Source of the DNA: Actinomycetota bacterium
Lineage (GTDB): Bacteria; Actinomycetota; Acidimicrobiia; Acidimicrobiales; Ilumatobacteraceae
DNA length: 38,376 nucleotides
Direction: 5' to 3'
NCBI GenBank assembly: GCA_009702755.1
Contig: WLHL01000013.1
Span: 1 to 38,376 of the forward strand
Positions 8,662 to 35,425 of the stretch are shown here, piece by piece (the first letter of the stretch is position 1; each line of letters opens with the position of its first letter). The notes below the pieces were generated by a model that was given only the letters and a program-made list of their open reading frames with translations, searched no databases and was not told where the DNA came from. The position numbers were made by a program, and so were the translations under genes.

Positions 8662-10701
8662 TTATCGAGGCGATCCCACCTTGGTCACCGCGCCATCAGG
8701 AGTTCGCACAAAGAGTTCCACCGAAAGATCCCCCGGCGTCAACAATGTGTAATCAAGAATCGCCGTGTAGGGCACCACGTCTCGTGCGCCGGAGAGTTCA
8801 CCAATGACACCTGCTGCAACTCCATTGATTGCGATGATTCCTTCTGTCCCCACTTCTAGTGGCGCAGAGAGTCGAACGTTTCCTGTCACAAGAGACGGAA
8901 CCTTGGCTCCGCGCTGATCAGACACATTTGTGAAACTCTTCTTCTGATTCACAGTCCAGGATGAAACGGAAGTGTTCTGGTCAGATGATGCAATACGAGA
9001 CCCGATCAGACTCGCGGAAGAACCAATCGCGGCAACCCGTCGATTCGGACCTTCATTAGACACCACATCTGCGTAGTACGCGACTCGTTCGAGAACTTCT
9101 TCAAAGCCGCCCGATATCACGTTTGTCTCACCCGTTGCTGACACAACCTCACGAACACGGTTCGCTGGACATGACTGAGCGACAGACTTGCCACCAAACA
9201 CCCATGATGTTTTCGTTTCAGTTGTCTCAATGATGGTCGGCAACAAATCAAGATTTGACATTGCGCAATCACTCACCACAGCCTGTGATTGTTGTGGATA
9301 CTTAATGAACGTAGGAATTCTGTAAATATCGCTGATTGTCTCTTTCTCAGTGAAGTCCGTATGACGTTGAGGCAGAGTTGGGACAAATGAGATTCCATGA
9401 TCCGCGGTAACGACAAGCATTGTCTTGTCCCACTTGCCACTTTTCTTGAGTTGAGACATGACATCAGCGATTGCATTGTCAGCTGCTGCCACCTGATACA
9501 AGAACGTCTGGTACGTATCGCGCACACCGTCCTCGCTCTCAGGATTCGATGTAGAGATAGACGGAGACAATGGCGCAACGCGGTCATCAGGCGTGATTCG
9601 CCACGGAGCATGCGGCGCCAATGCATGAACAACCTGCACACGTGACTGGGAATCCTCTACAAGCGCTCGCGTACCGTTGGCGATGGCATCAACTTGGGAA
9701 AGAGCGCCAACATCGAACTGCTCTTTGAACTTGTTTGCGACGGCACCAAAGCCACCCCACGTGCCTTCGATGGAGGGGACGTACTTGCGAAACACTGGCG
9801 GCAGAACACGCTGACCATATACATAGCTGGCATCACGCATAAATGACTTGAACCGCGAGAACTCAAAGAGCGCATTCACTTCATCAGTTCCTGCACACAC
9901 ACTCTTTGGGCACAAGCTGGTCACCGGCTCGATCCCTCCCACAGATGTCTTCCCTGCAAACAGAGTAAAAATATTCTTCGGATACTGAGTCAGGAATGGG
10001 CCACCCTCTTGTTGAGGGATTGCTGAGGCCAAAATTGCGGGCACCGCTTGATGGGTGAAGTTCGACTCAGCAACATTGTTGCGGTACCAGGTGGACTCAC
10101 GAGCAAGTGCGGCAAACCCCGGGTACCGCTCGGCGTTGATTGTTCCATCGTCAGACAACAGCGAGTACAGAGGGAATTCGTCAAACACGATGTGCAGAAC
10201 TGACACGTCTTTGTTGCCGATTACAGCGTCTGATGTAGGCCCGTCTGATTGGAACAGAATCGGCTGCAATTGGAGAATCGCGCTTGCAGTGACGGCAATA
10301 GCCAACACAGACAACCATCGCGACCATTCACGAATTGCTTTCTTTCGGTCATAGGCGATGGGCACAACTGCGGCAAAGAGAAAACCAAGCGTGAAAGCAC
10401 CAATATTGCCGTCAACACTGATCCATCGAGCCACCGCGATACCCAAGAGAAACGAAAAGCCCGCAATGATCCACAAGCGGGTTGCCTCGTTGACCTTCGG
10501 TCCGAGAAAGCGCGTGAGTCGATCTAACCCCGTTGCCAATAGCGCCGGCACGAGAACAATGATGAGTACAAAAAGGGCAACTTCGAGAGACGACATCTTG
10601 GCTGCGGAGAACACAGTGGGGTTCTTGCCATACAAATCGAGAATTGGCTGAGCAATCGCCATCGTCGAGAGTGCCAAATAAGTGAGGAAGTGTCTGCGCA
10701 T
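8662..10701 (-). CDS. Membrane-bound alkaline-phosphatase-superfamily (sulfatase-like) enzyme
   Basis: With the ATG at 10701 the protein has 679 residues: about four N-terminal transmembrane helices (residues 1-155) and then an extracytoplasmic catalytic domain. The domain shows HIVFDEFPL (metal Asp about 174), NFTHQAVPAILAS with a candidate nucleophile Thr at about 216, LAPHAPW, and VVTADHGISF (Asp434-His435). This is the layout of LTA-synthase, phosphoglycerol transferase and membrane sulfatase relatives, which modify surface polymers. Thr at the nucleophile position favours a phosphotransferase over a formylglycine sulfatase. The C-terminal 150 residues look like a separate beta-rich domain. 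A TTG at 10722 is an alternative start. Confidence 0.75.
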   Translation of the reverse strand: MRRHFLTYLALSTMAIAQPILDLYGKNPTVFSAAKMSSLEVALFVLIIVLVPALLATGLDRLTRFLGPKVNEATRLWIIAGFSFLLGIAVARWISVDGNIGAFTLGFLFAAVVPIAYDRKKAIREWSRWLSVLAIAVTASAILQLQPILFQSDGPTSDAVIGNKDVSVLHIVFDEFPLYSLLSDDGTINAERYPGFAALARESTWYRNNVAESNFTHQAVPAILASAIPQQEGGPFLTQYPKNIFTLFAGKTSVGGIEPVTSLCPKSVCAGTDEVNALFEFSRFKSFMRDASYVYGQRVLPPVFRKYVPSIEGTWGGFGAVANKFKEQFDVGALSQVDAIANGTRALVEDSQSRVQVVHALAPHAPWRITPDDRVAPLSPSISTSNPESEDGVRDTYQTFLYQVAAADNAIADVMSQLKKSGKWDKTMLVVTADHGISFVPTLPQRHTDFTEKETISDIYRIPTFIKYPQQSQAVVSDCAMSNLDLLPTIIETTETKTSWVFGGKSVAQSCPANRVREVVSATGETNVISGGFEEVLERVAYYADVVSNEGPNRRVAAIGSSASLIGSRIASSDQNTSVSSWTVNQKKSFTNVSDQRGAKVPSLVTGNVRLSAPLEVGTEGIIAINGVAAGVIGELSGARDVVPYTAILDYTLLTPGDLSVELFVRTPDGAVTKVGSPR

Positions 10702-10741
10702 CACCCTTTTACCTTGCCACAATGGAACAGTGAGTTCCCCT

Positions 10742-15525: not shown

Positions 15526-16423
15526 CAATTCACTTTCATCAACAGAGACTGCAGAGCCAGTCGTCAAGACGAAGAAACCACGTAAGACCATTGGTTTTTA
15601 TTTGGCTAGCGCATGGATTTCTTTGGTCATGTTCCTTGCACTCTTCGGATGGGTGCTTCCCACGCCTCAGTGGGACGAAGCGTCCTACGACAACCTCGGT
15701 GTTGCACCATTTCACCCCAGCCACATCCTTGGTACCACCAATGATGGTTACGACATGATGGCGTCCATTGTGAATGGAGCGAAGATCTCAATCATCGTTT
15801 CACTCGTGGCCGTTCTCATTGGCGGCGGTATCGGAAGTTTCATCGGAATCACGGCTGCTTATTTCCGCGGGAAATACGACTTCGCAGTCACCATGATTTT
15901 CAACATCATGTTGTCCATCCCCAACCTTGTGTTGTCATTAGCTTTGCTTTCCGTCCTCGCCTACTCCGATGAAAACAATCCGGCTTCAATGACCCGACGA
16001 GTTGTTGTGTTGATCATCTCTTTGATCATCGTGATTATTCCGATTCTTGGTCGTATCGCACGCGGATCAGCTCTTCAGTGGGGCAGCCGAGAATTCGTTT
16101 TGGCATCAAAGTCGATGGGGTCGAAGAATTTCTTCATTATTCGAAAGCACATTCTCCCGAACGTTGCACCAGCCATCTTGGCCATTGGTTTCCTCGCTGT
16201 TGGCTCCGTCATCATCGTTGAGGGATCCTTAGCCCTTCTCGGCATCGGAATTCCTGGCGGAGCTTCCTGGGGCTCCATGCTTGCCAATGGTCGCGGCAAC
16301 ATTGAATACTCGCCACATGAGGTGTACCTCCCCGCATTGTGCATTGCTTTCACAGTTATCTCATTCAACTGGTTCGGCGACTACGTCCGAGTCAAACTCG
16401 ACAAGAGGGAGTCAAAGATATGA
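15518..16423 (+). CDS. ABC transporter permease, DppC/OppC type
   Basis: The start is the GTG at 15518 with AAGG 7 bases upstream, overlapping the previous stop as GTGCCTGA; an ATG at 15446 lies deep in the previous gene and is rejected. The protein has 301 residues: a cytoplasmic N-terminus, a first helix near 25-45, a periplasm-facing loop ending HILGTTNDGYD (typical GTD-like motif), and the EAA loop REFVLASKSMGSKNFFIIRKHILPN. The C-terminal part has LLGIGIPGGASWGSML, a DppC hallmark. Translationally coupled to the ATPase gene by ATGA. Confidence 0.93.
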   Translation: MPDNSLSSTETAEPVVKTKKPRKTIGFYLASAWISLVMFLALFGWVLPTPQWDEASYDNLGVAPFHPSHILGTTNDGYDMMASIVNGAKISIIVSLVAVLIGGGIGSFIGITAAYFRGKYDFAVTMIFNIMLSIPNLVLSLALLSVLAYSDENNPASMTRRVVVLIISLIIVIIPILGRIARGSALQWGSREFVLASKSMGSKNFFIIRKHILPNVAPAILAIGFLAVGSVIIVEGSLALLGIGIPGGASWGSMLANGRGNIEYSPHEVYLPALCIAFTVISFNWFGDYVRVKLDKRESKI

Positions 16424-17976
16424 GCAACTTTTCGACTGTTGCTGAACGTCCGCTGCCATTTGCACAAGATGCCGAGCCAGGTATCTACCTTGCAGATCCA
16501 TCTCGTCGCCTGAAGGCTTTCCTTCTTGAAGAGGCTGTTTATGTAGTGGCGTTCGTTGTGATTGCCATCTTTGCAGGTGTCAATATCTCTCTTGCCGTTA
16601 CCTCGGTTTTGTGGCTTGCACTGCAAGTGAATGCGGGTCGCCAAAAGAGTGGTACTTCATTTGCAAAGAAGCGGATGAACATGCGTGTGGTCGATGCGAA
16701 AACATTCGAACCACTCACCTTAAGTCAGATGATTATTCGTCGCGGACTGCTGGCCACACTTGTCGGTCACGCAGGTCTTGCAATCGTAATCGCTGCACCA
16801 ACTGTGATTCTCAACGCCATCGGCCTTGAGAATGGTCTTCTCAGGCTCGCACTAACGATTGCGACCGTCTATGCCTATTCATCGGTGCCACTTCGCAATG
16901 ATCGCAATCGCAATGTTTGGGATCTTGTCTCTGGTACTCAGGTGATCTACGACAAGTTCGACACACTGACAACACCTATCATCGAGTCAAAACTGTCCCT
17001 CGAATCTGACCTTTTGACAATCGATGGTTTAGACGTTTCATTTGCCACACCACGCGGCAATTTGAAGGCGGTTCGCGATGTCACCATCAGGCTTCGGAAG
17101 GGCGAGAGTCTCGGTGTCGTGGGTGAATCCGGATCAGGAAAGACAGTTCTTTCACGTGCAACCATGGGTCTTCTTCCCTCCACCGCAACGCGCACCGGAG
17201 ATATCAAGTACCGCGGTGAATTGATTTCAGAATTGTCCTCGGTCGAAGTTCGTAATCTGTGGGGAACCGGCATGGCCATGATCTTCCAAGATCCAATGAC
17301 CGCATTGAACCCAGTTCGTCGCATCGGTGACCAGCTCACAGAAAGCCTTACCGAGCGCATCGGTATGGATAAGCGAGCAGCAACCGAGCGTGCTATCGCG
17401 CTACTCAAGCGAGTGCGTATTCCAGACCCAGAGGGCATGCTGAGGAAGTTTCCGTACCAGCTTTCTGGCGGCATGCGTCAGCGCATCATGATTGCTATTG
17501 CTGTTTCATGTAACCCTGAGATGCTCTTTGCAGACGAACCAACCACCGCGCTCGACGTAACAGTGCAGGCGCAGGTGCTTGAGTTGCTGACAGAACTCCG
17601 TAAAGAGTTTGATATGTCCATGATCTTGGTGACTCACGACCTTGGTGTTGTTGCAGGCCACACAGATCAGATTGCAGTGATGTATGCCGGTGACATGGTG
17701 GAGTACGCCCCAACACGTTCCCTCTTCGCAAACATGAAGATGCCGTACACAGAGGCGCTCCTCAAGTCGATTCCACGACTTGAGACACCCACCGGAACTC
17801 GTTTGCCCGTCGTTGAGGGTCGTCTCCCCGACCCCACCAAGGACGAGCCAGGTTGTGCATTCGCCAACCGTTGCGAATATGTGCAGGACAAGTGCCGCGC
17901 AGAAAAGCCGCCATTGAAAGATGACGGCGACAACCACTTCTATCGTTGTTGGTTCCCACTCGGAGGAGGCAAGTAA
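16420..17976 (+). CDS. RDD-domain/ABC ATPase fusion, DppD/OppD type
   Basis: The ATG at 16420 overlaps the previous stop (ATGA); 518 residues, about 180 longer than a normal DppD. Residues 25-180 look like an RDD domain: DPSRRLKAFLLEE, hydrophobic helices at about 38-70, GTSFAKKRMNMRVVDAKTFEPLT (78-100), hydrophobic segments at about 109-155, and NVWDLVSGTQVIYD (165-178). The ATPase follows: Walker A GESGSGKT (235-242), Q-loop Gln290, signature LSGGM (348-352), Walker B LFADEPT (369-375) and His406. The C-terminal oligopeptide-type region has four cysteines (CAFANRCEYVQDKC and FYRCW). It energises the importer. The membrane domain on a normally soluble subunit is the odd feature. Confidence 0.9.
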   Translation: MSNFSTVAERPLPFAQDAEPGIYLADPSRRLKAFLLEEAVYVVAFVVIAIFAGVNISLAVTSVLWLALQVNAGRQKSGTSFAKKRMNMRVVDAKTFEPLTLSQMIIRRGLLATLVGHAGLAIVIAAPTVILNAIGLENGLLRLALTIATVYAYSSVPLRNDRNRNVWDLVSGTQVIYDKFDTLTTPIIESKLSLESDLLTIDGLDVSFATPRGNLKAVRDVTIRLRKGESLGVVGESGSGKTVLSRATMGLLPSTATRTGDIKYRGELISELSSVEVRNLWGTGMAMIFQDPMTALNPVRRIGDQLTESLTERIGMDKRAATERAIALLKRVRIPDPEGMLRKFPYQLSGGMRQRIMIAIAVSCNPEMLFADEPTTALDVTVQAQVLELLTELRKEFDMSMILVTHDLGVVAGHTDQIAVMYAGDMVEYAPTRSLFANMKMPYTEALLKSIPRLETPTGTRLPVVEGRLPDPTKDEPGCAFANRCEYVQDKCRAEKPPLKDDGDNHFYRCWFPLGGGK

Positions 17977-19589: not shown

Positions 19590-21128
19590 TTAGTTCACTT
19601 GGCGCTCGAAGCCTTCCCAATAGGGTGCACGAAGAATGAATTTCTGCAATTTGCCTGTGGCCGTGCGAGCAAGTTCGGTTCGGAACTCCACAACCTTGGG
19701 GCACTTGTACGCAGCGAGTTTGGTGCGTACATGAGCAATGAGGTCAGCTTCAGTTAGTGACGAACCCGGTGACTTCACAACAAGTGCCAAAACTTTCTCG
19801 CCCCACTTTTCATCGGGGATGCCGATGACAGCGACCTCTGCAACTTCAGGATGTGAGAACACCGCATCTTCCACCTCGATAGATGAGACATTCTCCCCAC
19901 CAGACACAATGACGTCTTTCTTGCGATCTGCAATCGTGAGGTAATGGTTCTCGCCCAAGTAACCACCATCACCCGTACGGAACCATCCGTCAACAATGGC
20001 TTTGCCGGTCTCTTCGGGCTGGTTCCAGTAGCCGCCCATCACTGTGTTTCCACGTGCGAGCACTTCACCTGATGGGTCAATCTCTACTTCGACGCCCAGA
20101 GCAGGTGAGCCGGCAGCAGCCAACTTGCTCGCACGTTCACTGGGAGACAATGACTTCCATTCTTGACGAGAGCGGTTCATGGTGAGCAATGGCGAGGTCT
20201 CTGTTAATCCGTAGATCTGTACAAATTCCCAACCAAGTTCGGTTTCAATTCGCTCAATTGTCTTGGTTGGTGGCGGAGCGCCTGCGACGACCATTCGCAC
20301 CTCGCCTCGCCGAGTAGACGCATTGGATTCACTCGCTGCATCCAAAATCATGTTCGCCACCGCCGGTGCGCCGCACAGCATCGTCACAGCGTGACGATTA
20401 ATGCGAGACAGAATCTCCGCTCCGTCCACCTTGCGCAAGATCACGTGAGTTCCACCCATTGACGTCACGGCATACACCATTCCCCAGCCGTTGACGTGGA
20501 ACTGAGGAAGAGTGTGCAGATACACATCGCTCTCATTGACATTCATCTGCCACCCGAAGACTGCAGAGTTCACCCACAGACTGCGGTGTGTGAGTTGCAC
20601 ACCCTTCGGACGAGCCGTTGTGCCACTGGTGTAGTTAATCGTGGCTGTGGCGTCCTCATCTGGCACCCACGCGTTGGGCTGCGTATCGAACTTGTACAAG
20701 ACCGCATCAGATTCTGCACCGATGATGAACTTATGTTTGGCCTGTACATCAGACAACGCCTCTTCAAGTTCCGGGTCAATGATCAGCACCTCAGCCCCGC
20801 AATGCTCGATGATGTACTTCACTTCTTCAGCCACAAGACGGAAATTAATGGGCACAAGGACGCGCCCATACCCACTCACACCGAAGAACGCCGTCAGCAG
20901 CCGAGCTGAGTTCTGCGACACCATTGCAACGCGTGCACCCTGTGGGATACCCAAAGCATCGAGGCCTGCTGCTTGCGCGCGAGCTCGTCTGGCCATCTCG
21001 TTATAGGTGATGGACCCCCACGACTCGCCCGGCTGATCTGGCTCATCAATGATGGCAATTCGATCGCCATATACCTGCTCGGCTCGGCGGAGATGATCGA
21101 CAATTGTAAGAGCAACCTTCATATGCAT
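19590..21128 (-). CDS. Acyl-CoA synthetase (AMP-binding, ANL superfamily)
   Basis: A 512-residue ligase from the ATG at 21128 (a second ATG is at 21122). The frame stays open to 21416 but that extension would run through a terminator and the end of the next gene, so it is rejected. It shows the P-loop YTSGTTARPKG (166-176), IYGLTETSPLL, DGWFRTGDGGYL, ADRKKDVIVSGGENVSSIEVED, and catalytic Lys493 in RTATGKLQK. Family role: ATP-dependent activation of a carboxylic acid to its CoA thioester; the substrate could be a medium/long-chain or aromatic acid. It is convergent with the AlkB gene (5-bp gap). Confidence 0.88.
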   Translation of the reverse strand: MHMKVALTIVDHLRRAEQVYGDRIAIIDEPDQPGESWGSITYNEMARRARAQAAGLDALGIPQGARVAMVSQNSARLLTAFFGVSGYGRVLVPINFRLVAEEVKYIIEHCGAEVLIIDPELEEALSDVQAKHKFIIGAESDAVLYKFDTQPNAWVPDEDATATINYTSGTTARPKGVQLTHRSLWVNSAVFGWQMNVNESDVYLHTLPQFHVNGWGMVYAVTSMGGTHVILRKVDGAEILSRINRHAVTMLCGAPAVANMILDAASESNASTRRGEVRMVVAGAPPPTKTIERIETELGWEFVQIYGLTETSPLLTMNRSRQEWKSLSPSERASKLAAAGSPALGVEVEIDPSGEVLARGNTVMGGYWNQPEETGKAIVDGWFRTGDGGYLGENHYLTIADRKKDVIVSGGENVSSIEVEDAVFSHPEVAEVAVIGIPDEKWGEKVLALVVKSPGSSLTEADLIAHVRTKLAAYKCPKVVEFRTELARTATGKLQKFILRAPYWEGFERQVN

Positions 21129-21170
21129 ACCGTAGGCGCTCACATCGCTCTGACTAGCCCTGGAATGCAA

Positions 21171-21202
21171 AAGGGACGGTGACCCGAAGGCCACCGTCCC
21201 TT
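21171..21202 (-). terminator. Hairpin terminator of binding protein 2
   Basis: On the minus strand an 11-bp perfect stem (AAGGGACGGTG with CACCGTCCCTT) with a 10-base loop is followed by TTTTGC. It lies 25 bases after the stop of binding protein 2 and 42 bases before the next minus-strand start, so it separates the two genes. Confidence 0.85.
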
Positions 21203-21226: not shown

Positions 21227-22945
21227 TTAGCCCTTCCAGATTCCTGTCCACTCGAAGCCCTTGGTTTCGACGACATCTGCCATCTGACCACCAGGCATCT
21301 TCAAAGTTCCGATTCCGCGAAGCTTTGCCTTGTTGTTGACATACACCTGGAAACCACCGTGTACCGCAGGAATCGCAATACCCTGTTCTTGGATGTACTG
21401 AGTAGCGGCTTGCCACTTCGTTTTCGCAAGCTTCGGATCCTTCTCTGCCTGAGCGGCATAAATCAGATCGTCAACCTTGGTGTCGCTGTGGTTACCCAAA
21501 GCGATAACAGTGTTGTACACCTTGCCGTACGACGTGTTGGCGATTGGGTTGACTGTTCCAGTCATAAATGCCTTACTCACGAAGAACGGAATCACGTAGC
21601 CAGGAGAGCCACCTTCAGCAGGAGTACCTTCGGCGAAATCAAAGTCGTTTCCGCCGCCCTTGTAGATCTTTGAGACCAACAGAGCAGACTCACCGATGAA
21701 AGGAGCATTGAACAGAATTCCTGCCTTCTCCATCGACTTCTGAATGAACTTTGTGTTGTTCTGTGACTGAGTACTGGTATCTGCATACAACGTGATCTTC
21801 ATTGGAGCAGCCGCACCAAGATCTGTGTTGCACTTCGCAAGATAATCCTTTGCCTTGGCCAAGTTGTATGTCGGAGCACCCTTCTTGGTGTACATGATGT
21901 GCGACTTGCCGACAACTGAGCCGGAATAGTCACCATTACCCTTCAGACGCACCTTGTTGTAGCTCTTCCAGTCAATGGAATGAGCAGCAGCCAAGCGGCA
22001 GTTCAAGAACTTGAACGGAGAGCCAGCCTTGTTCTGGTTTGGCATCCACTGGCCCCAAGCGGTCTGTGTTGACTTATAGCCAGTCACTAACGACTTGCGG
22101 TTCGCCAAGTCATTGGTGAATGTCGCATCGCCCTGCACGAAGAAGCCTGCATCAGCAGTTCCACGGCGGACAGATGCTGCACGCTGTGATGCTTCTTTCA
22201 CAACAATGAACTCAATCTTGTCGAGGTATGGCAACTGACGACCCTTGCCATCTTTGCGCCAATACGTTGGGTTCTTCACCACAACTTGTTCGTCTTGCGT
22301 GAATGACTGAAGCTTGAATGGACCTGTGCCAATTGGATTGGTCGAACAGGTTGCACGATCAGCAATCTGAGCTGGTGCACGCATGACGTAGCGACCAGCG
22401 CGATACATCAGGCCAAGGAAGTCGTTGTCAGGACGCTCAAGCGTCACACGAACATTCAAATCATCTACAACATCAACTTGCAGAATATTGGAGTTGATAC
22501 CCACACCGGTTGAAAGGTATGTCGTCACCGCTCCACGACCGATGTCAATGTTCTGCTTCACAGATGCAGCATTGAACGCCTCACCGTTTGAATACGTGAT
22601 TCCTGGGCGGAGTTTGATGTTCCAGACCTTGTTGTCACTTGAGGTGAACGACTCAGCAAGAAATCCGACGTACTTACCTTTATTGGTTCGCTCCACAAGG
22701 CTCTCATAGATCGAGCGAGATGCTCCGAGAGGGCCACCAGGCAACGCATTTGCGAAGCAATGTCCGGCGATGGAACCATCAATCAACATCGTGACAGTTC
22801 CGCCGTATTTCGGCGCTCCTGCTTCAGGCTTTGGCGCCGCTTGCGAACCTGTGGCCGCAAGGGTTGAGCCAATGAGTGCAACACTAAGTGCTGCCCCCAG
22901 GCGCTTTGTCATTCGCGAACGAATGACTCTTCCTTGTGTTTTCAT
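21227..22945 (-). CDS. ABC transporter family-5 substrate-binding protein (binding protein 2)
   Basis: A 572-residue SBP_bac_5 protein with ATG preceded by GGGGGT, the same leader style as binding protein 1. The signal peptide is Arg-rich with a hydrophobic core and an SQA-AP type cleavage near 36; no lipobox cysteine. The mature part has YGGTVTMLIDGSIAGHCFAN, SIYESLVERT, WNIKLRPGITYSNGEAFN, NPIGTGPFKLQSF, NPTYWRKDGKG and a C-terminal GFEWTGIWKG matching the DWTGVY ending of the paralogues. It is the most divergent of the three. No permease or ATPase gene accompanies it, so it may share the importer at 14566-18968. It is divergent from the halohydrin dehalogenase gene across a 207-bp region. 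Confidence 0.87.
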   Translation of the reverse strand: MKTQGRVIRSRMTKRLGAALSVALIGSTLAATGSQAAPKPEAGAPKYGGTVTMLIDGSIAGHCFANALPGGPLGASRSIYESLVERTNKGKYVGFLAESFTSSDNKVWNIKLRPGITYSNGEAFNAASVKQNIDIGRGAVTTYLSTGVGINSNILQVDVVDDLNVRVTLERPDNDFLGLMYRAGRYVMRAPAQIADRATCSTNPIGTGPFKLQSFTQDEQVVVKNPTYWRKDGKGRQLPYLDKIEFIVVKEASQRAASVRRGTADAGFFVQGDATFTNDLANRKSLVTGYKSTQTAWGQWMPNQNKAGSPFKFLNCRLAAAHSIDWKSYNKVRLKGNGDYSGSVVGKSHIMYTKKGAPTYNLAKAKDYLAKCNTDLGAAAPMKITLYADTSTQSQNNTKFIQKSMEKAGILFNAPFIGESALLVSKIYKGGGNDFDFAEGTPAEGGSPGYVIPFFVSKAFMTGTVNPIANTSYGKVYNTVIALGNHSDTKVDDLIYAAQAEKDPKLAKTKWQAATQYIQEQGIAIPAVHGGFQVYVNNKAKLRGIGTLKMPGGQMADVVETKGFEWTGIWKG

Positions 22946-23054: not shown

Positions 23055-23152
23055 TTGTATCTGACAATTACTTCAATGCCTCGAATAGGGGTCACTCAAC
23101 CCCCTCCCGGCGCCTTCCACTAAGTTCTCCCCATCGCTCAAGGGAGAATCTC

Positions 23153-23899
23153 ATGACCCAGCACACTCGTCCCGTCGCCATCATCAATGACGGCAGCTTT
23201 TATGTCGGCCCACCCCTGGCGAGGGCCCTGGCTGCTTCTGGGTACGACATCGTCGTCGGCGACCCCGCAGATGGCCTAGTGGCAGAGCTTGAGGCTCTTG
23301 GGGCAACGGTTGCGAGCGTTTCCCAAGTTCGGGACCTCACTCGACCAGAGAATCCTCAGAAACTGGTGCAGACCGCCCTTGACGTCTTTGGTCGCATTGA
23401 CTCGGCTGTCATGTTCTCAGGACTCATCGTTACGGGTTCCATTCTCAAGTCCAGCAGAGAGGACCTAGACAAGGTCTACAACGGCTGCGTCGTCGCCCCG
23501 TATGAGTTCCTCAAAGCCACATTGCCCACCATGGTCACGCAACGCTCTGGCCAGGTTCTCCTCATCACCAGTGCGTCCGCCGCACGACCCACGCCCGGTG
23601 CGCCGTTGTATTCCTCCATGAGATCAGCTGCCACCATGCTTGCCAAGAATTCCGCGATGGAGATGGCCAAGAACAACGTGCAAGTCAACGCCGTCGGAAC
23701 AAACTTTATGGACTTTCCCGAGTTTCGCCGAGCAACAGGGGCCGATGATCCCGAGACGCGAAAGAAGATTGAGTCGCAAGTTCCTCTCAACCGACTTGGT
23801 GGAGTGGATGAGTTTGCTCATTTCTGCATGCCGTACCTCGACGGCAAGAGCACATTTGCAACTGGCCAGTTCGTCTCTTTCTCTGGCGGATGGTCGTAG
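23153..23899 (+). CDS. Putative halohydrin dehalogenase (HheG-like), SDR-derived
   Basis: The ATG at 23153 has AGGGAGA upstream; 248 residues. The fold is that of short-chain dehydrogenases, but the catalytic residues are Ser140, Tyr153 and Arg157, spaced as S-X12-Y-X3-R; normal SDRs have Lys at the last position. The N-terminal glycine-rich NAD(P) motif is replaced by NDGSFYVG (12-19), close to the T-X4-F/Y-X-G motif of halohydrin dehalogenases with Asn in place of Thr. These are established family signatures. From memory, segments such as GLIVTG, VGTNFMDFPEF and TGQFVSFSGGWS closely resemble HheG of Ilumatobacter. Such enzymes interconvert halohydrins and epoxides without a cofactor. It could instead be an inactive or repurposed homologue. 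Confidence 0.8.
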   Translation: MTQHTRPVAIINDGSFYVGPPLARALAASGYDIVVGDPADGLVAELEALGATVASVSQVRDLTRPENPQKLVQTALDVFGRIDSAVMFSGLIVTGSILKSSREDLDKVYNGCVVAPYEFLKATLPTMVTQRSGQVLLITSASAARPTPGAPLYSSMRSAATMLAKNSAMEMAKNNVQVNAVGTNFMDFPEFRRATGADDPETRKKIESQVPLNRLGGVDEFAHFCMPYLDGKSTFATGQFVSFSGGWS

Positions 23900-23908
23900 T
23901 CATTTCGC

Positions 23909-24352
23909 TTACGTGCGCGATACGAGTTCTCTCCATTTACGATGAGCCTCATGCACGATTTCACCGTTACTGAGTGCAGGCAGATTCACAGTCTCTAGCG
24001 CTAACACTTTTATCGCAATCGCTTTCTGATGATCTCGCAGATAGTGAGAGAAGCGTTCAGCAGCATTTGCTTTCCCAGTTCCGTGTCCAAGCAGCAAGAC
24101 ACTGGATGCATTCTGAATGTGAGCTGAAAGATCTGCAAAATAGTTCACCTCTCCGTTCTCGGAGGCATGTCCGTGATGAGCTTCTGCACTACCAACATGA
24201 ATGTTTTCAGGCTCGGCTCGACGAATAATCGCTATCGGCGCAGTTGACTCATCATTCAATAGAAATACGTGCGCGTGATCGTGAGTGACTGCAACAGCAA
24301 CGGATTTGTTTTTGACCTTGTCTTCATCAATGAGATTCATGCAGTGAAACAT
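23909..24352 (-). CDS. Small baeRF-like (bacterial eRF1-related) protein
   Basis: A 147-residue protein with an alternating beta/alpha pattern: VAVAVTHDHAHVFLL (first strands), IHVGSAEAHHGHAS, NYFADLSAHIQNASSVLLLGHGTGKANAAERFSHYL, then VLALETVNLPALSNGEIVHEAHRKW. The combination of an opening DHAHVF strand, a His-rich linker, a LL-GHGTGK loop and the closing LETV-LP-NGEIV helix resembles small proteins of the eRF1 domain-2/3 type annotated as translational machinery or baeRF proteins. No catalytic GGQ is present. Start by ATG at 24352, with ATG at 24340 as alternative. It converges on the dehalogenase gene with a 9-bp gap. Confidence 0.55.
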   Translation of the reverse strand: MFHCMNLIDEDKVKNKSVAVAVTHDHAHVFLLNDESTAPIAIIRRAEPENIHVGSAEAHHGHASENGEVNYFADLSAHIQNASSVLLLGHGTGKANAAERFSHYLRDHQKAIAIKVLALETVNLPALSNGEIVHEAHRKWRELVSRT

Positions 24353-24399: not shown

Positions 24400-24474
24400 A
24401 TAGTCAAGTCAGTTCATTAGTCGATACCTACGGTTGCCTTGAGAGAACACCTCTTCAACAGCCAGGAGAAGCCG

Positions 24475-26250
24475 ATGACATACTCACGAGGTCAGAAACA
24501 ACGACGAGCGATTGCACTAATTCTTGCAAGTGCTGTCGTAGCAATGTCGTGTTCATCCGGAAATGACACTGCATCATCGACGACAACTCCCCCGCCCGCA
24601 CGGTACGGAGGAGAAATCAATGTCGGCATCTTCGACAGCCTCCCTGGTTTCTGTGTCGGCAATAATCCGGCTAACTCTGCTCTCATGGCTACGCGAACCA
24701 TCTACGAGACACTCTTTGAAAAATCCGAGACGGGTCAGATGGTTGGCTTGCTCGCACAGGGCGCCACTTCATCAGCTGACCTCAAGACGTGGACAATCAC
24801 ACTGCGAAAAGGAATCTCATTCCACGACGGGACACGATTCGATGCTGCGGCAGTCGTAGCGAATTTCAACGCCATTACTGGTCGTGTCGCACTCGGCGCC
24901 TACGCAGCGAGTGGTCCACAAGGACTCGCCGCCACGGCGTACACAATCGGCACAGGCACAGCATTCACGGCCAACATCAATTCTTTCCAAGCACTCTCTG
25001 ACTACGTCGTTGAATTCACCCTTGATCGTCCTCAGTACGACTTCCGATCGACGTTGTATGCGTCAGGGCGTTTCTTTATGAGGTCACCACGCCAACTTCA
25101 AGATGCCAAGACATGCGGCCAGAGCCCAATTGGCACCGGTCCATTCAAAATTGAGTCATGGAATCCAAACGAAATGACCGTGACACGCAACGCTTCCTAC
25201 TGGAGAAAGGATCCCATCACCAATAAGCAATTGCCCTATCTCGATGCAATCACGTTCCAGAACATCAAGGAAGCATCACAAAGAGCAGGGGCAGTTCGTA
25301 GCGACACTCTCGATGCGGGATTCTTTTCCGCAGCAACAGATTCCGCAACCATTGTGGATCTTCGCTCTCGGTCAACAGTGAAAGAAACCAAGTCGCCCGA
25401 TGAGTACTACCCATCACTGTGGCTGAATCAAGGCAAGCCGGGATCACCGTTTCAATATCTGTCAGCAAGGCAAGCTGTGCTCTCATGTATCGATCGAAGC
25501 AACTTTGTCAAAGTTCGAACCAAAGATGAAACATCGGTCGCCGAATCAATAGTTGGACCCACCAGCCTTATGTTCTCGACCGAGAACTTCCCTGAGTTCA
25601 ATAGCGACAAAGCCCAGGAGTATGTGAATGCCTATAAGAAGGAAAGCGGAGAAACATCACTTCAGTTCACCTTTCCCGCAGACACGAGCACAACAACGCA
25701 ATTGAATGTCCAATTCCTGAAGTCAACGTGGTCGAAGTGCAACATCAAGGCTGAGTACGTCATTGAAGAAGGTGCGGTCATCATCGCGAAAGCCTTCAAT
25801 GCTTCTCCACAACTTGACAAGGGTGGCTTCTACAACGCATACGACGCCATTCCCATCACACTTCTGGAAGGTACAGATGCTGCTTTCAACATTCCGTTTT
25901 TGGTCACCAATGCCTACACAAAATCCAGCATGAATCCGGTGAAACAATTACTTGGCGCTTCTCTCGGGCCCGTTCTCGGACTCAATCATCACGACGACAC
26001 AAAGATTGATGACTTCCTCTATGCAGGACAGGCACAAGCAACTGCAAGCGATGCGGCTACCTATTATCGACAAGCCACCTCATACATTCAAAAGAATGCG
26101 GTGATGGGATCCATCAATCGGTTCTACTACTCGCTCTTCACGACCAACAAGATTGCTGGTGTCGGAGTTCTCCAACTACCCAATGGACAAACCCAAAGGT
26201 CCATCAGTAACTGGGGGATTGATTGGACTGGCGTGTATCAAGTTGGTTAG
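24475..26250 (+). CDS. ABC transporter family-5 substrate-binding lipoprotein (binding protein 3)
   Basis: The ATG at 24475 has AGGAGAA upstream; 591 residues. A lipoprotein signal ends in AMSC with Cys26 as the lipidated residue, unlike the two paralogues. After a Ser/Thr/Pro linker the mature protein reads YGGEINVGIFDSLPGFCVGNNPANS, nearly the same as binding protein 1 over this segment. It also shares SPIGTGPFKIESWNPNE, NASYWRKDP, SCIDRSNFVKVR and the ending NWGIDWTGVYQ. It is thus the closer paralogue of binding protein 1. No transport genes flank it. It ends 4 bp inside the convergent acyl-CoA synthetase end. Confidence 0.88.
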   Translation: MTYSRGQKQRRAIALILASAVVAMSCSSGNDTASSTTTPPPARYGGEINVGIFDSLPGFCVGNNPANSALMATRTIYETLFEKSETGQMVGLLAQGATSSADLKTWTITLRKGISFHDGTRFDAAAVVANFNAITGRVALGAYAASGPQGLAATAYTIGTGTAFTANINSFQALSDYVVEFTLDRPQYDFRSTLYASGRFFMRSPRQLQDAKTCGQSPIGTGPFKIESWNPNEMTVTRNASYWRKDPITNKQLPYLDAITFQNIKEASQRAGAVRSDTLDAGFFSAATDSATIVDLRSRSTVKETKSPDEYYPSLWLNQGKPGSPFQYLSARQAVLSCIDRSNFVKVRTKDETSVAESIVGPTSLMFSTENFPEFNSDKAQEYVNAYKKESGETSLQFTFPADTSTTTQLNVQFLKSTWSKCNIKAEYVIEEGAVIIAKAFNASPQLDKGGFYNAYDAIPITLLEGTDAAFNIPFLVTNAYTKSSMNPVKQLLGASLGPVLGLNHHDDTKIDDFLYAGQAQATASDAATYYRQATSYIQKNAVMGSINRFYYSLFTTNKIAGVGVLQLPNGQTQRSISNWGIDWTGVYQVG

Positions 26251-27923
26251 GAGTACAGGTCCCTCAAGTCCTTCTTCAACACTTTTCCTGCAGCGTTCCG
26301 AGGCAAGTCCTCGTGATGCCAAAACACCTTGCTGGGCACCTTGAAACCTGCCAAACGTGAACGGAGATGTTCAAGAACATTTTCAGCACTCTGAGGACCA
26401 TGGCCATCAGCGGCAACAATGACAGCCGCCACTTCTTCACCCAGCTTGTCGTGCGGTATACCGATGACGGCACAATCCTTCACCGCATCGGCTTCAAAGA
26501 GAACAGTCTCCACTTCCACGCAATAGACATTCTCGCCACCGCGCAGCACCATGTCCTTGATGCGATCCACCACATAGATGAAGCCATCAGGGTCAATGAG
26601 TCCGGCATCACCCGTATGGAACCAGCCATCCGTGAACGCTTTTGCAGTCTCCTCTGGCTTGTTCCAATAACCACGCACATTGTTCGGGCCGTACACCCAA
26701 ATTTCACCAATGGACCCTGGCGGAACATCTTGGCCATCTTCCCCAACAATGCGGATATCGGTTCCGACATAAGGAAGACCCACACTGTCCTTCTTGGCGA
26801 AGTACGCAGCGCCACTGTTGCCGATAATCGCTGCTGTGGTTTCGGTGAGTCCGTATCCGTTTGCAGCACCGACCTTGCCAGCGAAATCCTTTTCAATCCG
26901 TGCGACGGAGTCCGGCGCAACGGGTGCGCCTCCCTGTGAAATTGCTGTCAAGCTCGACAAGTCGTACTTGTCACGCTCAGGGTGTTCAAGCATGGAACGC
27001 ACAACCGTGGGAACGCCACCGAATGAGGCAACTTTGTACTTCTCAATCAGTCTCATCGCATCTGCCGGGTCCCACTTGAATTGCGAAACAATGGCTCCAC
27101 CGTTGTTGGTGTGAGAAGTCATTCCACAAAGACCAGCAATGTGGAAGTACGGGAATGTCGTGAAGGCAATTGCCTGGGGTTTTGGCGCATTTGAGGGCGA
27201 TGGCGCGACACCTGCCATCTTTCCGGCAAGCGCAACCGCAAATAGGCCGTTCCAGATATTGGTGATGTAGTTGCGGTGACTGCCAGCAGCACCTTTCGGA
27301 AAACCAGTTGTGCCCGATGTGTACAGAATTGTCGCATCATCATCTGCATTGATCACCACATCTGGCAGTGCCGCTGACGTGTTGCTCGCAATGTCTGACC
27401 ACGCAAAAGTTCCTTCACGAGTCTCTCCACGAACCACCAGCACAGAGTGCACGCCGCAATCTGAGAGCAATTCGTCAGAGAGCCTCTCCAGACGTTCCCC
27501 ATCGACAATTGCTGCAGTAGCCCCAGAGTCTGTGAAGGCGTACTTCAACTCATCGGCAATCCACCATGCGTTCAAGCTGACGGTGACCGCACCAATGCAC
27601 TGAATCGCCCAATGTGCCATTGCCCACTCGGGATAATTACGCATACCAACGGCGACACGATCGCCTTTCTTGACTCCACGCTCTGCAAGCCACGCTGCAA
27701 CGGCAGTCACCTGTTGATGGGCACCCCCATACGTGGTCGTGACATCGTCGTAATGAAAGTACGGTGCGTCACCTCGCTGCGCAGCCGAGAGCCACACATC
27801 GCGCAATGACGTGGGAGCATTTTTAAAGACACGAAGAGGATTCCCGTGAATGTTCACAGTCTCAAGTTCGAAGGGACTTCCTGAAGAAGTCAGTTCTGCA
27901 ATGGCTTCAACACGAGTCAGCAT
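26247..27923 (-). CDS. Acyl-CoA synthetase (AMP-binding, ANL superfamily)
   Basis: A 558-residue ligase with P-loop YTSGTTGFPKG (201-211), YGLTETTAAI, DGWFHTGDAGLIDPDGF, VDRIKDMVLRGGENVYCVEVE, and catalytic Lys547 in RNAAGKVLKK. It differs clearly from the 512-residue ligase at 19590, so the two are not recent duplicates. The family forms acyl-CoA thioesters through an acyl-adenylate; the class resembles fatty-acid or bile/cyclohexane-carboxylate-type ligases, but the substrate is open. The ATG start lies 15 bp downstream of a palindrome also found at the binding-protein promoters, suggesting shared control. Confidence 0.88.
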   Translation of the reverse strand: MLTRVEAIAELTSSGSPFELETVNIHGNPLRVFKNAPTSLRDVWLSAAQRGDAPYFHYDDVTTTYGGAHQQVTAVAAWLAERGVKKGDRVAVGMRNYPEWAMAHWAIQCIGAVTVSLNAWWIADELKYAFTDSGATAAIVDGERLERLSDELLSDCGVHSVLVVRGETREGTFAWSDIASNTSAALPDVVINADDDATILYTSGTTGFPKGAAGSHRNYITNIWNGLFAVALAGKMAGVAPSPSNAPKPQAIAFTTFPYFHIAGLCGMTSHTNNGGAIVSQFKWDPADAMRLIEKYKVASFGGVPTVVRSMLEHPERDKYDLSSLTAISQGGAPVAPDSVARIEKDFAGKVGAANGYGLTETTAAIIGNSGAAYFAKKDSVGLPYVGTDIRIVGEDGQDVPPGSIGEIWVYGPNNVRGYWNKPEETAKAFTDGWFHTGDAGLIDPDGFIYVVDRIKDMVLRGGENVYCVEVETVLFEADAVKDCAVIGIPHDKLGEEVAAVIVAADGHGPQSAENVLEHLRSRLAGFKVPSKVFWHHEDLPRNAAGKVLKKDLRDLYS

Positions 27924-32827: not shown

Positions 32828-35425
32828 GTGACTGACATTGCCCCATCTGGAACCCGCGTCTCCTTCAAGGTCAACGGACGAGACGTTTCTGTCTCTGTCG
32901 AACACCCCCACCTCCTCGCCGCCCTGCGCGATGAACTGGACATCACGTCCCCCAAGGATGGCTGTTCTCCTTCGGGCCAGTGCGGCTGTTGCACCATCAT
33001 GATCGACGGCAAAGCACAAGTCAGTTGCCAGTACCCCGTCACCAAGGCTGAAGGCAAAGTCATCACCACACTTGAAGGCGTCGATGAAGCAGAGCGCACT
33101 CGCTATTCAGATGCATTCGCAGCATGTGGCGGCTTGCAATGTGGTTTCTGTATCCCTGGCATTGTCATGCGTGCAAAGTCGCAAGTGGACAAGAAGGGCG
33201 CGGACTTAAAGCGCGAAGACATGGCCCGTCACTTGGGTGCACACCTCTGTCGCTGTACTGGCTACGTCAAAGTTCTTGACGCCATTGAAGCCGTTGCCAA
33301 GGGATCCCCTGTCGACATCTCACTGCCTGGTGGAGTCGGGTCACGAGGCACAAAGTACGAAGCAAATGAACTCGCTCTCGGTGATCGTGGTTATGTCGAT
33401 GACATTCGCGTTCCTGGCATGTTGCACGCTGCTCTTCACCTGACCAAGCATGTTCGCGCAGACATCACCGCAATCGATACAACTGCCGCACAAAATGCTC
33501 CAGGTGTTGTTGCTGTGTTTACTCGCGCCGATGTTCCCGGTGACAACAAAGTCGGAATCATCTATAAAGACTGGCCAGTGTTTGTCGGAGTCGGTGAACG
33601 CACGTCATATGCCGGAGACGTTCTCGCAGTGGTTGTTGCCAACTCACGTCGAGAAGCACGTGCTGCCTCTGAACTCATTGAGGTGCAGTACGCCCCGCTT
33701 CGACCCATTGTGGATGCCCGTGCGGCCATCACGGATCCAGACATTGCTGTATGGGGCACAGACAGCAATGTCCTCTCTCGAAGCGAGTATTCACGAGGAG
33801 ATGTTGATGCACAATTGGCATCAAGTGCTTTCGTCGTGACAGAGACATTCAATACGCAACGTATTGAACACGCCTTCCTCGAGCCAGAGTCAACTCTTGC
33901 CGTTCCAAATTCCAAAGACGGAACAATGCACGTGTACTCCGGCGGTCAAGGTGTCTGGGATGACCGTGATCAGATTTGTTCGCTTCTCGGGATACCCACA
34001 GAAAAAGTCACCGTTGAACTCGTCTCTAATGGCGGAGCCTTTGGCGGCAAAGAAGACATGTCGAATCAGGGTCAAACTGCTCTAGCAGCATGGCTATTGC
34101 AACAACCTGTGAAATGCACGTTGTCTCGCGAAGAGAGCCTGTTAATGCATGCGAAGCGTCACCCGATTGAAATGGAATACACCGTTGGCTGCGATGCCAA
34201 TGGCAAGCTCACCGCAGTGCGCGCTCGTATGATCGGTGACTCTGGCTCCTATGCGTCAGTAGGTATGAAGGTGCTTGAACGTGCAGCAGGACATGCCACG
34301 GGCCCGTATCACACACCATCGGTTGATGTTTCGTCTGTTGCTGTTCGCACTAACAACCCTGTGTGTGGTGCATTCAGAGGATTCGGCGCAAACCAAGCTC
34401 AGTTCGCAATGGAAGGGTGTCTTGATCGCCTTGCTGAGATGGCAGGAATCTCGGGCTGGGAGATTCGTAAGCGCAACGTGATTCATCCGGGTGAAGTATG
34501 GGGTCCTGGCCAAATCATGGACGATGGTTGTCTCGGAGCCGAGACATGTCTCGACACAATCAAAGACGAGTACGACACAGCGGTTGCTGCAGGAAAAGCT
34601 GTGGGGCTTGGTCTCGGTCTTAAAAACTCAGGACTCGGAAATGGATTCCGCGAGATTGCTCGTGCAGCAGTTCACTTCCGTGCTGACGGCCTCGTCGAAG
34701 TTCGTCACGGATGGACAGAGATGGGTCAAGGCGTTCACACTGTTGCATTGCAAGTTGCTGTGGAAGAACTCGGTATTGATGCCGCAAGCATCCGCGTCAT
34801 TGTTGACACCACTCGTCAACTTGGTTTCGGACAAACCACCGGCAGTCGTGGAACCCTCATGGCGGCTGCAAGTGTGAGGAACGCGTGCGCGGAAGCAGAC
34901 AAAGATGGCCGCAAGATCGGCGTTGATTACATCGGCGAGTACGTCGTCGACTGGACGCAACATCTTGGTGAACCAGGCGTGGAGAACCCAACTATTCATT
35001 CAGCATTTGGATACGCAGCACAACTCGTTGTGATGAATCCGGACACTCAAGAGATTGAAAAGGTTGTTGCAGTGCATGACGTTGGTCGCGCTGTGAACCC
35101 AACACTGTGTGAAGGCCAGATTGAAGGCGCAGTGCACATGGGTCTTGGATACGCATTGACCGAGGACTTCCCGAGTGATGAAACAGGATTCCCCACCAAC
35201 ATGACATTGCGCTCATTGGGAATCTTGCGCGCCAAAGATGTGCCACCTATTGAAGTCACATTGGTGGAATGCCCGCAGCCAAAGAGCCCATACGGCATTA
35301 AGGGTGTGGGTGAAATTGGTCTTGTACCGACAGCACCCGCCGTCGCAGCTGCGTTGCACAATGCAGACGGTGTGTGGCGAACACGCTTGCCAATGAAACC
35401 AAAGAACGACAGTTCAAACGATTAA
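32828..35425 (+). CDS. Fused [2Fe-2S]/molybdopterin hydroxylase, xanthine oxidase family
   Basis: 865 residues. N-terminal ferredoxin-like [2Fe-2S] domain: Cys46, Cys52, Cys55 and Cys67 ([12 protein letters not shown]), with one residue more than usual between the first two. The second [2Fe-2S] domain has CGFC (105-108) and CRCTGY (141-146). The molybdopterin domains begin near 175, with [23 protein letters not shown], and [13 protein letters not shown] close to the C-terminus, whose Glu is the catalytic base of the family. There is no FAD domain in the chain or next to it, as in Mop-type aldehyde oxidoreductases. It probably hydroxylates an aldehyde or N-heterocycle. GTG start. The first of a likely four-gene operon. 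Confidence 0.88.

Follow-up and report, generated by a model that had tools for sequence, protein, structure and literature searches.

A predicted halohydrin dehalogenase of the short-loop G-type branch in an Ilumatobacteraceae genome, and the sulfatase genes found near many of its relatives

The DNA analysed here, termed the window, is a stretch of 38,376 nucleotides (contig WLHL01000013.1 of assembly GCA_009702755.1) from an Actinomycetota bacterium of the family Ilumatobacteraceae, the genome of which (G000) comprises 1.84 Mb in 94 contigs. The gene under study, a predicted halohydrin dehalogenase (HHDH), reads from an ATG at 23153 to a stop codon ending at 23899 as a frame that is open throughout and encodes 248 amino acids (Table 1). 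An alternative upstream start is available at TTG 23039, against which stands the length of 248 amino acids in all 15 nearest relatives (P0002-P0016). A search for a sigma-70-like promoter near the gene found none. One further locus, L009 (JAJTFJ010000006.1, Ilumatobacteraceae bacterium), encodes a protein identical to the window HHDH within the same gene order and with slightly different neighbours, and therefore comes from a very near genome.

Table 1. Features of the window HHDH gene and of its neighbours (positions in the window).
Feature	Position	Strand	Basis or remark
Short-loop G-type halohydrin dehalogenase (HHDH) gene	23153..23899	+	PDB search, fold, tree; activity predicted
AGGGAG, ribosome-binding-like, 6 nt 5' of the ATG	23141..23146	+	Sequence; putative function
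Motif 1, N12-X4-Y17-X-G19 (codons 12-19)	23186..23209	+	Lines the predicted nucleophile pocket, by analogy with HheC/HheG (accessible text of PMC11976700)
Linker DPADG, residues 37-41, at the place of the HheG flexible loop 39-47	23261..23275	+	Alignment
Motif 2, S140-X12-Y153-X3-R157, predicted catalytic triad	23570..23623	+	Sequence and alignments
Acyl-CoA synthetase-like	19590..21191	-	Start uncertain, ORF to 21416; also in L010, L011, L013, L014, L016
Family-5 extracellular solute-binding protein, divergent neighbour	21227..22945	-	Also in L010, L011, L013, L014, L016
Small conserved protein, 147 aa, no confident family, convergent	23909..24352	-	Conserved near HHDH in the window clade
Family-5 extracellular solute-binding protein	24439..26250	+	Neighbour annotation
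Acyl-CoA synthetase	26247..27923	-	Top NCBIfam score steroid-24-oyl-CoA synthetase, below cut-off

The five loci listed for the divergent solute-binding protein are the window-clade loci that reach far enough to show its counterpart, and the L010 relative of the small convergent protein gave no Pfam match. Farther away, at a distance of 12.4 kb from the HHDH gene, the window holds a PF00884 gene (8662-10722; 71 bits against a cut-off of 25), on which named sulfatase models score low and which was left out of the neighbour counts given below. Two other frames of the window deserve mention in their own right: positions 32828-35425 form a single frame of 865 amino acids that exceeds the NCBIfam cut-off for a selenium-dependent xanthine dehydrogenase (838.8 versus 830.45), and positions 16339-17976 join an RDD domain and an oligopeptide-type ABC ATPase in one frame, representing either a real fusion or too early a start.

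A preliminary description of this DNA had proposed a halohydrin dehalogenase, probably of the HheG type, from a Ser-Tyr-Arg triad in S-X12-Y-X3-R spacing and from an N-X4-Y-X-G motif at residues 12-19 in place of the usual NAD-binding Gly motif. Both motifs are present in the translated frame, and in an alignment of the query with its 120 nearest matches (the best 120 of 2869, 66-91% identical to it) N12, Y17, S140, Y153 and R157 are invariant in 121/121 rows and G19 is kept in 120/121; since these residues are invariant across relatives of such divergence, the pattern is not due to chance. The TGxxxGxG motif of short-chain dehydrogenases/reductases (SDRs) is absent from the window HHDH and from 80/80 HHDH loci collected from genomes, and present in the two that could be read among six SDR paralogues of the window genome. 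When the alignment and structural model that the description had called for were made, the nearest neighbours by sequence as well as by fold were chains of G-type HHDHs. A PDB search with the window protein returned 7wkq (321 bits), AbHheG (8h8y, 319 bits; mutant 8hqp, 313 bits) and HheG chains (184-188 bits), followed after a wide gap by the best NAD-type SDR (78 bits), 4z9f (halohydrin epoxidase A, 75 bits) and 3zn2 (56 bits). In a fold comparison of the AlphaFold monomer model (pLDDT 82.7, the stretch 142-149 beside Ser140 being poor) ranks 1-25 were all chains of 7wkq, AbHheG or HheG, the first FabG appearing at rank 26. A 76-row maximum-likelihood tree, built quickly and without bootstrap and with 25 of its 73 inner forks open, grouped the window protein with 7wkq, AbHheG and HheG, within a clade of its own of eight rows (support 99), and set the two NAD-type SDR paralogues of the window genome apart on very long branches; placement among NAD(P)-dependent SDRs, which the description had named as grounds for abandoning its proposal, was thus not what was found.

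The assignment to the HheG type holds at the level of G-type HHDHs, as PDB search, fold and tree agree, and fails for HheG proper, a candidate that we rejected because the long flexible N-terminal loop 39-47 is replaced by the short DPADG linker. Grouping, short linker and a GTN(F/Y)MDF stretch all place the protein in the short-loop branch of 7wkq and AbHheG, of which it is a new natural member with predicted activity. The window gene is thus very probably a short-loop G-type HHDH, and its predicted reaction is the NAD(P)-independent conversion of vicinal halohydrins into epoxides and back.

This assignment sits awkwardly with the published HHDH filter, which in the accessible text of PMC4989007 consists of T-X4-F/Y-X-G plus S-X12-Y-X3-R. 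The window protein has the second motif and, in the first, keeps Y17 and G19 with Asn for Thr; since T-X4-F/Y-X-G fails, it is not an HHDH by the strict definition and is filed here in the short-loop branch. The replacement of Thr by Asn, already pointed out in the preliminary description, extends to all 121 rows, and Asn12 as a feature unique to the window protein was accordingly rejected. Two peptide patterns located outside both motifs were used to collect the genome loci, of which the top 80 of 97 confirmed ones were taken, and motif 1 was looked for in their first 40 residues only. Across these 80 loci the first motif-1 site is A in 42, N in 21, G in nine, S in three, T in two and D, H and P in one each, whilst none of the 80 deviates at Y/F17, at G19 or in the triad. 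Asn is therefore one of several natural states of this site, Thr marking the HheG group. The two-motif filter passes 2 of the 80 genome loci, none of the 121 near rows and 7/7 HheG-group loci; T-X4-F/Y-X-G is likewise missing from the two crystallised proteins, which have Gly (7wkq) and Ser (AbHheG) at its first position. Judged from these sequences, mining by the strict motifs would miss almost all of the short-loop branch sampled here, so that a large pool of HHDH candidates goes unseen: candidate epoxide-opening biocatalysts, two of them already crystallised, which are annotated as reductases. The accessible part of a 2025 study (PMC11976700) reports that the motif-1 Thr of HheG can be replaced by similar residues only (Ser) and notes two natural variants, and the Asn clade thus offers a natural experiment at a position where HheG accepts Ser only. 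Given that Asn12 is clade-wide and that the site varies freely in the branch, an effect of Asn12 on nucleophile binding is possible. The view that the family is small did not survive: 55/395 whole genomes of the class, in 33/183 genera, gave a hit at E<=1e-40, fragments in a few cases.

Clustering of the genes that flank HHDH in the 80 loci and in the window revealed recurrent partners, which we identified on representatives. One of them, a protein of ~754 amino acids with a CSPTR-type motif, matches arylsulfatase 4cxk with 303 bits; a sulfatase lies within 5 kb of the HHDH gene in 38/80 loci, and in 30 of the 54 loci with at least 3 kb of flank on each side. The initial pattern for the sulfatase Cys motif was found in 31 of these 38 sulfatases, L027 being added later, and the motif was seen by alignment in L063, L064, L067 and L078 (rows for 10/11 loci, with none for L137); contig ends truncate the sulfatases of L018 and of L081, and we make no claim of broken sulfatases. 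A haloalkane dehalogenase, which in L020 scores 470.7 bits against a curated cut-off of 265 and has 6f9o and 4mj3 as best PDB matches, occurs within 10 kb of HHDH in 17/80 loci, and neither enzyme is near HHDH in 18 of the 54 well-flanked loci. Other recurrent partners are a mycothiol-transferase-like protein of the DinB superfamily, which is weakly matched (41.5 bits versus a cut-off of 170; DinB_2 21.4 versus 24.8), a TetR regulator, a DUF2855 protein and a beta-propeller protein with no confident family. The sulfatase neighbours occur in various orders and strands, with at least seven changes of state on the quick tree (49 rows, 23 with sulfatase, after removal of sulfatase-free loci whose flanks were short). 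An overlap of 4 nt between the HHDH and sulfatase frames is seen in six loci: HHDH comes first in L029, L030 and L049, sulfatase in L079, L080 and L081; overlaps of 4 nt between HHDH and the DinB-like gene occur in L028, L036, L062, L063, L064 and L078. Downstream gaps lean short because the start codon nearest the stop was taken. The 7wkq chain (residues 3-248) is encoded at L024, where a sulfatase lies 1.6-1.7 kb off and the HHDH gene runs on into one gene resembling Rv2466c and one resembling MDMPI, each of a mycothiol family.

Several features of these loci were noted in passing. In L079 (7140-9992) and L088 (4727-7369) the sulfatase 5' of HHDH is fused in frame to a DJ-1/PfpI domain. The beta-propeller family of ~420 amino acids (L045 5514-6788 and 15 aligned relatives) lies within 6 kb of HHDH in 19/80 loci and also occurs in the HheG-group loci L122-L124; the L045 protein had no NCBIfam match, that of L033 a weak SGL Pfam match, and fold comparison of the neighbour cluster c424 gave no informative function. 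L082 and L085, which come from bins labelled Chloroflexi, also carry HHDHs of the short-loop branch, possibly as a result of transfer; the neighbours there are DUF2855, NMO/FabK-like, sulfatase and haloalkane dehalogenase genes. The titles of L035, L045, L047, L079, L081 and L087 (Bifidobacterium breve; Acidobacteria bin) do not fit such loci and are probably errors of naming or binning; the neighbours of L087 are the same as those of the Microthrixaceae loci L065 and L073. Record titles of several HHDH loci mention Baikal, LacPavin, groundwater, palsa and fen.

The association was assessed in two sets of whole genomes, which overlap in content with each other and with the 80 loci. Among 30 genomes, a sulfatase lay within 5 kb of 14/31 HHDH genes versus 2/150 control SDRs, with 0.65 expected from a uniform density (Fisher p = 9e-11, a value that overstates independence since the genomes are related); sulfatases and control SDRs were in each case the best 150 of a longer list, and the control SDRs, as the best-scoring ones, may be housekeeping genes. 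All 14 linked HHDH genes, in 8/18 genera, had the sulfatase within 1.5 kb. In 25 further genomes the count was 6 of 26 HHDH entries (0.64 expected from density), the entries including two fragments (G024) and the partial matches G115 and G387; this set was not blind, several loci having been seen beforehand, and took the density expectation as its sole baseline, without an SDR control. The six linked entries were among the 19 outside the HheG group, the seven within it having none. Haloalkane dehalogenases, counted in the 25-genome set at two thresholds (E<=1e-40 and E<=1e-80), lay within 10 kb of HHDH in 3/31 cases versus 2/150 controls in the 30 genomes and in 4/26 cases (0.22 expected) in the 25, two of the four belonging to the HheG group. 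Of the haloalkane dehalogenases themselves, 6/35 in the 30-genome set and 6/27 (0.66 expected) in the 25-genome set had a sulfatase within 5 kb, the genome of HheG itself (G027) being among these pairs; its locus L118 is 99.6% identical to an HheG mutant chain. At G027:C1:3502535-3508256 a haloalkane dehalogenase gene is flanked by two sulfatase genes, as is the case in G254 and G387. Both enzymes are common in these genomes, a haloalkane dehalogenase being present in 180/395 genomes of the class (E<=1e-80). By a hand count that took both draws as identical genomes, and uncorrected for kinship or genome size, it was present in 47/55 HHDH-carrying genomes versus 133/340 others.

The window clade itself shows a different picture: in 0/8 rows is there a sulfatase within 5 kb, and in 0/8 a haloalkane dehalogenase within 10 kb, four of these loci being less than 14 kb long. 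An NMO/FabK-like gene stands beside HHDH in L011 and L015. The window genome as a whole has ten PF00884 matches at E<=1e-10, the four among the matches listed all being on other contigs, and two haloalkane dehalogenase matches, likewise on other contigs, one of which adjoins a DUF2855 gene.

By analogy with other HHDHs, Tyr153, its pKa lowered by Arg157, would take a proton from a substrate hydroxyl held by Ser140, and the freed oxygen would displace the adjacent halide to give an epoxide. The halide would leave into the motif-1 pocket formed by N12, Y17 and G19, where an SDR would hold NAD, and in the reverse direction the enzyme may open epoxides with small anions. The neighbourhood of the relatives hints at the natural job of the HHDH family: a sulfatase would uncover a vicinal halohydrin from a sulfate ester, HHDH would close it to the epoxide, haloalkane dehalogenases would strip other halogens, and the mycothiol-transferase-like protein, or another nucleophile, would possibly consume the epoxide. 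That the family acts in this way, forming an epoxide after a sulfatase has released the halohydrin, is a tentative proposal to which we give somewhat less than a one-in-three kind of credence, and the role of the window clade is the least certain since close sulfatase and haloalkane dehalogenase neighbours are absent there. As to the substrate, we can offer a guess. Chlorosulfolipids contain vicinal chlorohydrin sulfates. They carry sulfate and up to 11 chlorines and are described, in the accessible text of PMC13413282, from freshwater chrysophytes and recently from coastal seawater. It is a speculative and rather improbable extension that short-loop G-type HHDHs supply the missing dehalogenating step in the bacterial breakdown of these algal lipids or of similar halohydrin sulfates, from sulfatase to HHDH to haloalkane dehalogenases and mycothiol transferase, with the Asn-motif clade as a branch whose pathway genes are scattered in the genome. 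Internal halohydrins would fit the preference of HheG for internal epoxides reported in the available portion of PMC11536340.

Three other explanations were weighed. That the gene encodes an ordinary NAD(P)-dependent short-chain dehydrogenase, for example a 3-oxoacyl-ACP reductase, is what a routine annotation would suggest, and the preliminary description was right to expect this: the Pfam models adh_short_C2 and adh_short, generic for short-chain dehydrogenases, score above cut-off and the source names are 3-oxoacyl-ACP reductase or SDR-type. However, the catalytic Lys of the classical Ser-Tyr-Lys set is replaced by Arg in 121/121 rows, the nucleotide-binding motif is missing, the 321 bits to an HHDH compare with 78 to the best NAD-type SDR, and no NCBIfam model passes its cut-off among the best 25 of 183 (top 107.6 bits versus 215). 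We therefore rejected a plain NAD-dependent SDR, which is highly improbable. It is also unlikely, if less so, that a cofactor-less protein of the HHDH lineage has lost halide binding through the motif-1 Asn and turned to another reaction. The fixation of Asn in 121/121 rows and the tolerance of HheG for just Ser in place of Thr (PMC11976700, as far as its accessible text goes) would agree with such a loss, but 7wkq with Gly and AbHheG with Ser, titled HHDHs in the PDB or in papers, belong to the same branch, and the site varies freely in the 80 loci whilst the remainder of both motifs is fixed.

A more serious possibility, though still one that we regard as doubtful, is that these G-type enzymes serve to open or detoxify epoxides with a small anion such as nitrite and do not dehalogenate, the sulfatase and haloalkane dehalogenase being bystanders in catabolic clusters. 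In the accessible part of PMC10099379 the characterised enzymes HheG, HheG2 and HheG3 open epoxides well and have next to no dehalogenating activity on the chloroalcohols assayed; the window gene lies between solute-binding proteins and acyl-CoA synthetases, and an NMO/FabK-like gene adjoins HHDH in two loci of its clade. Against this reading, the 4-nt overlaps of HHDH and sulfatase occur in six loci and in both gene orders, and the association recurs in the further genomes (6/26 versus 0.64). Moreover, the G-type dehalogenation assays, as given in the accessible text, used unspecified beta-chloroalcohols and 2-chlorocyclohexanol, so that internal halohydrins with long chains were perhaps not among the substrates.

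Regarding the physiological role of HHDHs, a 2016 review (PMC4989007, accessible text) states that just two of the HHDH genes known at the time sit together with an epoxide hydrolase in one operon; further physiological functions of HHDHs, it adds, cannot be excluded. Our literature search found no paper joining halohydrin dehalogenase with sulfatase, with haloalkane dehalogenase plus sulfatase, or with genomic context; judged by titles and the beginnings of abstracts, it returned nothing on the physiological role of this HHDH family or on bacterial breakdown of chlorosulfolipids. The HHDH-sulfatase neighbourhood is thus likely to be new to the literature, most subscription papers lying outside the search. 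The neighbourhood of sulfatase and haloalkane dehalogenase genes offers a concrete and testable answer to the question of what HHDHs do physiologically.

Among known systems, the most distant are 4z9f and 3zn2, HHDHs of types A and C which share the SDR fold and Ser-Tyr-Arg triad with the window protein; at 75 and 56 bits they match it no better than ordinary SDRs do and belong to a different branch. The closest is 7wkq, an HHDH from an Acidimicrobiia bacterium, which is ~60% identical to the window protein over its full length and has the triad and fold in common with it. Both linkers are short, DPAE in 7wkq and DPADG in the window protein, whilst motif 1 starts with Gly in the former and Asn in the latter; the 7wkq gene adjoins sulfatase and mycothiol-family genes, whereas the window gene is without such neighbours. 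A DPAE-linker homologue from Actinomycetota/Acidimicrobiia is described in the available portion of PMC11536340. AbHheG (8h8y, mutant 8hqp), likewise from an Acidimicrobiia bacterium and the top PDB fold match, is 58-59% identical in the fold alignment and shares the triad and the short linker, with Ser in place of Asn in motif 1; the nearest locus to it among those examined is L106, at 83%. HheG from Ilumatobacter coccineus (5o30, 6i9v/w) is 42-43% identical, and its group of seven genomes has a sulfatase within 5 kb of HHDH in 0/7 and a haloalkane dehalogenase within 5 kb in 2/7. HheG and the window protein have the triad, the Y-X-G of motif 1 and the fold in common; they differ at the start of motif 1, which is Thr in HheG and Asn in the window protein, and at the linker, which is short in the window protein and forms the long flexible loop 39-47 in HheG.
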